Positions 36,581-38,651 of a DNA stretch of 38,651 nucleotides are shown one piece after another; position 1 is the stretch's first letter; the number at the start of each line of letters is the position of its first letter. Position numbers and translations under genes: made by a program. Source of the DNA: Planctomycetota bacterium (lineage in GTDB: Bacteria > Planctomycetota > Phycisphaerae > Sedimentisphaerales > Anaerohalosphaeraceae); NCBI GenBank assembly GCA_022705405.1, contig JAKJEN010000010.1:1-38651 (forward strand), read 5' to 3'. Below the pieces are notes generated by a model. That model saw only the letters and a program-made list of their open reading frames with translations. It ran no database searches and was not told where the DNA came from.

Positions 36581-36662
36581 GGCTGCCCGGATGCCGATAC
36601 GGGACCGGAATTCGGAGTAAGGAAACAAATATTCAAAGAAGCAATAAGTTGCGGAGGTTCGT

Positions 36663-37223
36663 ATGAAGGCCTCGGAAATGAAAAAAGGCCAAACCATTAA
36701 AATCGACAGCGTTCTGTACGTCATCGTGGATTTTCAGCATGTCAAACTCAGCAAAGGCGGAGCGGTCTATCAGACCAAACTGAGAAACCTGGCTGCCGGC
36801 GGCATCCGCGACATCCGCATCCGCGCTGAAGAAGTCCTCGAAGACGCCTTCCTCGAAAAGCGCAATTTTGAATACCTTTATTCGGCCGGCCCCGAACATA
36901 TCTTTATGGATCTGGAATCGTATGACCAGATCACGCTCGATGACGACGCCTTTGGCGAAGGCGCCAAATACTGCAAGCCCAACACCCAGATTCTGATAAG
37001 CATGTATGACGGCCGTCCCGTTCTTGTTCAGCTGCCCACCACCGTGGATCTGGAGGTCACCGACACCGTCCCCGAAATCAAAGGCGCAACCGCCACCAAC
37101 CAGTACAAGCCCGCTACGCTCGAAACCGGCCTGGTCATCCAGGTGCCGCCGTTTGTCAAGGTCGGAGAACTGATCCGTGTCGATACACGAACAGGCCAGT
37201 ACGTCACCCGTGTAAAGGAATAG
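36663..37223 (+). CDS. efp: Elongation factor P, unusual tip loop
   Basis: EF-P binds the ribosome between the P and E sites and relieves stalling at proline runs. The 186-residue protein has the three expected domains: the KOW-like N-terminal domain, the first OB domain with FEYLYSAGPEHIFMD, and the C-terminal OB domain with the family signature around VPEIKGATATNQYKPATLETG. The loop that carries the modified residue reads KLSKGG here, with candidate Lys31, whereas most EF-Ps have PGKG or PGRG at this place. The ATG follows GGAGG at 5 nt. No epmA, epmB, earP or ymfI-like modifying gene is in the window. The family call is firm; how the loop works is open. Confidence 0.95.
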   Translation: MKASEMKKGQTIKIDSVLYVIVDFQHVKLSKGGAVYQTKLRNLAAGGIRDIRIRAEEVLEDAFLEKRNFEYLYSAGPEHIFMDLESYDQITLDDDAFGEGAKYCKPNTQILISMYDGRPVLVQLPTTVDLEVTDTVPEIKGATATNQYKPATLETGLVIQVPPFVKVGELIRVDTRTGQYVTRVKE

Positions 37224-37977: not shown

Positions 37978-38071
37978 TTACGTTTTTATGCCGATGAAAA
38001 TCATTAAACAAAAACAGCCTCACATGCCGATAAGTGTTTTGACAAAAAATACTTATATGCACGGAAGCTGT

Positions 38072-38651
38072 ATGATTACTATCGGCAGAATTCCCAAAAA
38101 ACTGCAAGGTTTTTTTCGGCCTGTCAAAAAACAGGTATCCGGCCATGTTTACGATTATTTCTGGTCGTTCGTTCTGGCCATGTGCATCGGCCACGGCAGC
38201 GCCATTGACAAGCTCGTCAAGCTGTTGCGAAACAGCGCCCATCGCACCAATCACGGCGAATTCCTGTGGCGCAGCAACTGGGGCGAGTCGGCGGTCATGC
38301 AGCACATTGCCCTGGACCTTCTGTGCAGCTTGTTCCACAAGAAAGACCGTAATCTGTTCTTTATCATCGATGACACCCAAATCCTCAAACGGGCCAAAAA
38401 GATGGATGCCGTTGGAAAATTGTTCCACCATGCCACCGGCAAATACGGCCACGGCCACACCCTTGTCAAGGTCTGCCTGTATTATCGCGGCGTCACCATC
38501 CCATGGGCATCGCTGCTGTATGTGAAGAAGGAACACGCCGTGGGCCTGGGGATCGAGTTTTTCAAGCTCACCCAACTGGCCGGACAGGCCATCCGTCAGG
38601 CGACTTTGCCGGACCACTTCCAGGTCACGGTCCTGTTCGATGCGTTCTATC
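38072..38651 (+). mobile_element. DDE transposase of an IS4/IS701-like insertion sequence, 5' part
   Basis: An open plus-strand frame starts at ATG 38072 (GGA-containing site upstream; another in-frame ATG at 38057) and runs off the end of the window, giving 193 residues. It contains the first catalytic aspartate in a FFIIDDTQIL block, a KYGHGHTLV segment and what looks like the second aspartate region (VLFDAF), in the manner of IS4-superfamily/IS701-type DDE transposases. The minus-strand frame over the same DNA (37964-38617) is its shadow. The left end of the element probably lies between 37975 and 38060; the terminal repeat cannot be defined because the right end is not in view. Whether the copy is complete is unknown. 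Confidence 0.8.

Follow-up and report, generated by a model that had tools for sequence, protein, structure and literature searches.

Elongation Factor P with a Clade-Specific, Proline-Free Lysine Loop in the Planctomycete Order Sedimentisphaerales, and One Recent Further Substitution in a Single Genome

The efp Gene and Its Product

The window, by which is meant the whole 38,651-nucleotide stretch of planctomycete DNA analyzed here, contains on its forward strand a complete open reading frame for elongation factor P (efp; 36663–37223), which starts with ATG and comprises 186 codons of protein. A GGAGG sequence five bases 5′ of the ATG (36653–36657, forward strand) is the likely ribosome binding site. 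The 186-residue product is made up of a KOW-like N-terminal domain, an OB domain, and a C-terminal OB domain. It contains all three Pfam EF-P domains (PF08207, PF01132, and PF09285) and passes the NCBIfam efp equivalog TIGR00038 with 219.5 bits (cut-off 185.8), and these matches uphold the original prediction in its claim that the protein outside the tip loop is an ordinary EF-P. Scores against the curated EfpL/YeiP model (149.9 vs. a cut-off of 216 bits) and the IF5A family model NF003076 (17.1 vs. 138 bits) were below threshold. An AlphaFold2 model computed from a 28-row alignment (A1) has a mean pLDDT of 87.3 and a pTM of 0.66; its top structural match is the C. glutamicum EF-P 6s8z (VIA Z 21.6, with 185 residues superposed at an rmsd of 2.2), and solved EF-Ps match the modeled protein along its full length.

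Only one EFP_N domain match was found in the window's genome, a draft of 323 contigs that is 89.4% complete, which makes this protein the sole EF-P found there; a search for a second efp had been recommended and returned none. Together with the purifying selection described below, the single copy speaks against the suggestion that the protein is a paralogue with another role, and the best reading is that of a normal EF-P retained under selection.

The third domain carries the motif Gly141-Ala142-Thr143 (37083–37091), where E. coli has GDT, a sequence described in the portion of the source consulted as the EF-P contact with the E-site codon (PMC11611912). Each of the 28 planctomycete sequences in alignment A1 reads GAT, and the alanine is present in 81 of 83 clade sequences, the other two being unread at this position. 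Upstream of efp lies a gene for an AddA-like helicase, which is also present in the set's three loci of the same genus (L102, L103, and L148) and partly in L107. A PADLOC scan of the two neighbors of efp matched the AddA-like protein as a generic UvrD helicase, and this was not taken as a sign of a defense system. A DDE_5 transposase fragment (37988–38650, forward strand) also adjoins efp and runs off the end of the contig.

The Tip Loop and the Published Rule

The β3–β4 tip loop reads K28-L29-S30-K31-G32-G33-A34 (36744–36764, forward strand), corresponding to K31-P32-G33-K34-G35-Q36-A37 of E. coli; with the preceding V27, it is encoded at 36741–36764. In the AlphaFold2 model the loop is flanked by strands predicted at residues 17–29 and 33–42. 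It aligns with PGKG-type EF-Ps of known structure without a single insertion or deletion, as a loop of seven residues with Lys31 at the tip, so that the report of KLSKGG in place of the usual PGKG or PGRG, which drew attention to this gene, is real.

The proline and glycine that precede the tip lysine in E. coli have been examined by Volkwein et al. (2019; PMC6544042). In the sections examined, Pro32 is reported for 98.73% of lysine-tip EF-Ps and termed invariant among those that rely on a modified lysine; each of the substitutions P32S, P32G, G33A, and G33S abolishes the activity of E. coli EF-P (PMC6544042). The figure implies that 1.27% of lysine-type EF-Ps lack Pro32, and these sections contain no discussion of them (PMC6544042). 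In the window protein, the position of Pro32 is occupied by Leu29 (codon 36747–36749, forward strand) and that of Gly33 by Ser30 (AGC, 36750–36752, forward strand), while the tip residue Lys31 (36753–36755, forward strand; E. coli Lys34) is retained, as it is in all 83 distinct clade sequences. The altered loop combines two changes of different age and depth, Leu29 being order-wide and Ser30 confined to this genome.

Leu29 Is Characteristic of the Order

Among the 83 distinct clade sequences, that of the window included, position 29 is Leu in 78, Cys in three, and Ile in two; proline two residues before the tip lysine is thus absent from every one of them, and Lys31, Gly32, and Gly33 are invariant. 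The loop LGKGG, IGKGG, or CGKGG was found in all 66 other order genomes for which a lysine-tip EF-P loop was read, namely in four of four sister genomes of the genus, in 26 of 26 genomes of the family, and in a further 36 from the rest of the order. This census dropped alignments beginning after residue 20 and left out partial matches in G007 and G026. Six order genomes encode an EF-P with the asparagine-tip loop TPGNLRA, as an extra copy or alone. A sequencing or assembly error at Leu29 was rejected, the residue being order-wide and LGKGG being present also in the single-contig genomes G010, G037, G042, and G046.

The clade-wide trait is therefore L-G-K-G without Pro32, and not LSKG, as had been raised in the original prediction. 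That prediction had also held that a PGKG loop in close relatives would point to a recent mutation or sequence error. This applies to the serine, which the genus sisters lack and which is thus a recent change or an error, but not to the loop as a whole, as the sisters do not carry PGKG either. The further proviso that such a loop might already be characterized in this clade found no backing: searches of the literature yielded no published description of an EF-P with an LGKG loop, although subscription papers may hold one, no paper on Sedimentisphaerales together with elongation factor P, and no experiment on an EF-P with an L-G/S-K-G-G loop.

Two EF-Ps were counted, from the table of matches, in 22 of the 147 order genomes that have an EFP_N match. 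In all five two-copy genomes with both loops read (G035, G036, G045, G053, and G056), one EF-P has the L/C-GKGG loop and the other TPGNLRA. The TPGNLRA copies cluster in the tree with the rest of the class (support 100), a grouping by which the LGKGG type would be a second EF-P that replaced the class's own type; the sequences suggest such a displacement in most of the order. A combination of unlike loop types, one with a lysine tip and no proline and the other the asparagine-tip TPGNLRA, was also observed at loci L213 and L214 of genome G108. In G002, a member of the same genus that is 98% complete, no EF-P was found by protein or Pfam search, which reflects either an assembly gap or a loss.

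Ser30: Recent Substitution or Error

Position 30 is Gly in 82 of the 83 clade sequences and Ser only in that of the window, and when 161 order genomes were scanned with a DNA pattern for HVK-x-Ser-KGG, the genome of the window alone matched (14 of the 161 have no EFP_N match at all). The glycine expected immediately before the tip lysine is therefore missing here and, within the order, here only. The codon AGC differs from the GGC of the genus sisters by one transition. Conservation across the clade reaches at least 98% at 44 alignment columns; the window protein deviates from these at Ser30 alone, and 68 of the 83 sequences deviate at none.

Ser30 could instead be a base-calling or assembly error, in which case the real loop would be LGKGG as in the rest of the genus: the change amounts to a single transition (GGC to AGC), 82 of 83 clade sequences have Gly at this column, and the sequence comes from one strain and from a 323-contig draft. 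This explanation is considered unlikely, given that Leu-Ser occurs at the same positions in 12 genomes of an independent clade (see below), which indicates that the change is biologically allowed, and that the window protein differs from those of its genus sisters by ordinary substitution (86–87% identity) with no frameshift. The best reading of Ser30 is that of a recent, lineage-specific substitution that is tolerated.

The Same Loop in a Distant Planctomycete Clade

A KLSKGGG loop was found in two families elsewhere in Planctomycetota, in 10 of the 11 genomes read from one (f25) and in both genomes read from the other (f35); the eleventh f25 genome has a PGKGQ loop. For the tree, 199 rows were reduced to 116 and the loop columns masked; in it the LSKGGG rows form one clade (SH-aLRT 100) that stands apart from the Sedimentisphaerales clade (SH-aLRT 99). 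Forcing all Leu-Ser-Lys rows together gave an AU p of 0.034, so that a single origin of all Leu-Ser-Lys loops is weakly rejected. When all rows with a lysine tip and no proline were forced together, the arrangement was not rejected (AU p 0.235), although the best tree separates them. It follows from these results that the lineage of the window acquired its Ser30 independently and that Pro32 was lost once or twice. Leu-Ser-Lys is in any case a workable loop, given its presence in 12 of the 13 genomes read from the two families of the distant clade.

A phylum-wide scan with a DNA pattern matched 29 of 392 genomes at 30 places, of which 11, all in the order, lie inside an EF-P, while none of the remaining 19 could be aligned to one; the pattern demands Val27 and AGN or GGN at position 30, is too narrow for the f25 and f35 loops, and is thus not a census. 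The EF-Ps read outside the class mostly have an asparagine tip (43 phylum genomes, vs. 19 with PGK and 12 with LSKGGG). The EF-P loop of L249 (G079), KMQNRRP, is unlike every other loop read. Two records titled Candidatus Kuenenia stuttgartiensis (L126 and L166) have an EF-P of Sedimentisphaerales or Isosphaeraceae type and are likely mislabeled bins. The anammox marker HZS_alpha, used to probe whether family f25 is anammox, matched none of 16 genomes, and no control genome matched it either.

Modification Enzymes

Homologs of the known modification enzymes, for which the original prediction had recommended a search, were sought with curated models. EpmA (TIGR00462) was above cut-off in none of 59 genomes of relatives (controls, two of 14), its best match in the window's own genome being the lysyl-tRNA synthetase encoded at 515–2014 of the window. 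For EpmB (TIGR03821; cut-off 369.3), the two KamA proteins of this genome, which is 89% complete, scored 245.6 and 178.5; the former fits lysine 2,3-aminomutase better (416.5 bits) and is cut by a contig end. KamA-family proteins were above cut-off in 42 of the 59 genomes, the two of the window's genome being those that were classified. YmfI (NF047420) likewise gave no match above cut-off in the 59 genomes, the best score being 227.4 against a cut-off of 238 (G038), and one of 14 controls exceeded it. EarP, the known substrate of which has an arginine and not a lysine tip, matched none of 59 and none of 149 genomes, and no control genome either. EpmA, EpmB, and YmfI are thus without a match above the curated cut-offs, and the suggestion of an unmodified working mode or an unrecognised modification is left standing. 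EpmA and EpmB occur in scattered Planctomycetes, according to the part of the source consulted (PMC2821294), so that membership of the phylum does not by itself account for their absence here.

The neighborhood of efp offers no candidate in their place. In 28 of the 44 order loci that extend 500 bases or more beyond efp, the gene that follows is secA, and no modification gene stood out as a conserved neighbor. In eIF5A, a non-proline residue stands two before the modified lysine (K-T-G-K). On that analogy, L-G-K-G could conceivably be the substrate of an enzyme resembling deoxyhypusine synthase, and modification of the tip lysine through an unrecognised enzyme or a hypusine-like pathway is possible, if rather doubtful. 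The strict conservation of Lys31 in all 83 clade sequences is as expected of a modification site, and aIF5A structures are among the matches of the structural model (1bkb, for example, at Z 12.1 and an rmsd of 2.2 across 125 residues). In addition, as far as the consulted portion of the source reports, the majority of the bacterial EF-Ps known so far need to be modified, and in most model bacteria the unmodified protein has little or no activity (PMC11381351). The sub-threshold EpmA, EpmB, and YmfI scores and the want of a modification enzyme beside efp, where secA is the usual neighbor, count against such a modification. Unmodified function is the best guess on activation.

Selection and Function

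Comparison of the window efp with its genus sisters gives a dN of 0.07 and a dS above 1, that is, purifying selection. The loss of the glycine could mark relaxed constraint on an EF-P that is losing its function or entering a new role, and in keeping with this the branch of the window protein in the tree exceeds that of its genus sister in length (0.096 vs. 0.052), pN between the window and the sisters is 0.069 as opposed to 0.020 between two sisters, and G33S is inactive in E. coli, according to the sections examined (PMC6544042). That reading is nonetheless very improbable: dS is large and dN low, the protein departs at one of the 44 highly conserved columns, no second EF-P was found in the genome, and a PPP motif is retained in lysyl-tRNA synthetase. 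This motif is kept in seven of eight LysRS loci read, and the retention of so strong a stalling motif in an essential enzyme speaks for a functional EF-P. In the 21 window proteins (open reading frames taken as genes), Pro-Pro pairs number 18, fewer than the 26.8 (s.d. 4.9) expected from shuffled sequences, and PPP motifs two, compared with 1.26 in shuffles; the mild Pro-Pro depletion would also fit a weaker EF-P.

Comparison with Known EF-P Systems

The EF-P of E. coli, modified by EpmA/EpmB, shares with the window protein the fold, the three domains, the seven-residue loop, and a lysine tip followed by glycine, but the latter has Leu for Pro32 and Ser for Gly33, and EpmA and EpmB were not found above cut-off. 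With the B. subtilis EF-P, which bears 5-aminopentanol through the YmfI pathway, it has the lysine tip in common. In the closest solved relatives by sequence, S. aureus 6rji and 6rk3, the lysine is preceded by Pro-Gly, unlike that of the window protein, the relatives of which have no YmfI above cut-off in 59 genomes. The loop of the actinobacterial PGKGP subfamily keeps Pro32 and Gly33 and adds a proline after the tip. These actinobacterial EF-Ps work unmodified, as other papers relate and as is proposed here, although the window loop differs from theirs in having no proline at all. Like the window protein, the arginine-type EF-P of P. putida, the partner of EarP, has no proline two residues before its tip; its tip is however arginine, and R32K in that loop is inactive, according to the sections examined (PMC6544042). 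The paralogue EfpL/YeiP works unmodified, as stated in the consulted part of the source (PMC11611912) and as likewise proposed here, but has an arginine tip on a longer loop, whereas the window protein has a lysine tip on a seven-residue loop. The asparagine-tip EF-Ps of planctomycetes (TPGNWRG, TPGNLRA, and similar) belong to the same phylum and protein family and form the second EF-P of some order genomes; they mostly keep Pro-Gly and replace the tip lysine by asparagine, whereas the window protein has the lysine and lacks Pro-Gly.

A Proposed Third Lysine-Loop Design

The protein is a known one, with a clade-specific proline-free lysine loop and one recent additional substitution. Its family and fold, its single copy, the order-wide absence of Pro32 with the tip lysine kept, the purifying selection on the gene, and the lack of EpmA, EpmB, and YmfI matches above the curated cut-offs are matters of observation. 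The explanation favored here, with a probability of roughly 0.55, is that it is a working EF-P with a third lysine-loop design, (K)LGKGGA in place of (K)PGKGxA, which is unmodified or carries an unrecognised modification. Such a factor would enter the ribosomal E site as other EF-Ps do, and by analogy with them would bring Lys31 up to the CCA end of peptidyl-tRNA and thereby relieve proline stalling. The shape of the loop would come from L-G/S-K-G-G rather than from Pro32, and Lys31 would act bare or bear a modification due to none of EpmA, EpmB, and YmfI. Ser30 may have been tolerated because the loop was already without Pro32, the same L-S-K-G-G being fixed in the distant planctomycete clade. 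With an entire order lacking Pro32, two lineages lacking Gly33, and the gene conserved, neither the Pro32 rule nor the E. coli G33S result is transferable to these proteins.

More tentatively, planctomycetes may possess, in L-(G/S)-K-G-G, a third functional design of lysine-tip EF-P, one that needs neither a loop proline nor a tip modification to relieve proline stalling. It would have arisen once or twice, in one case amid asparagine-tip EF-Ps, would largely have displaced the class's EF-P type within Sedimentisphaerales, and may there read the E-site codon differently, with GAT for GDT.

The rule in the field is that a lysine-tip EF-P needs proline two residues before the lysine, glycine immediately before it, and usually a modification, and a whole order breaks the proline part of this rule. 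The two lineages that also drop the glycine provide natural test molecules for the task of the loop at the peptidyl-transferase center, and Sedimentisphaerales constitute a clade in which the need for EF-P modification can be tested directly.
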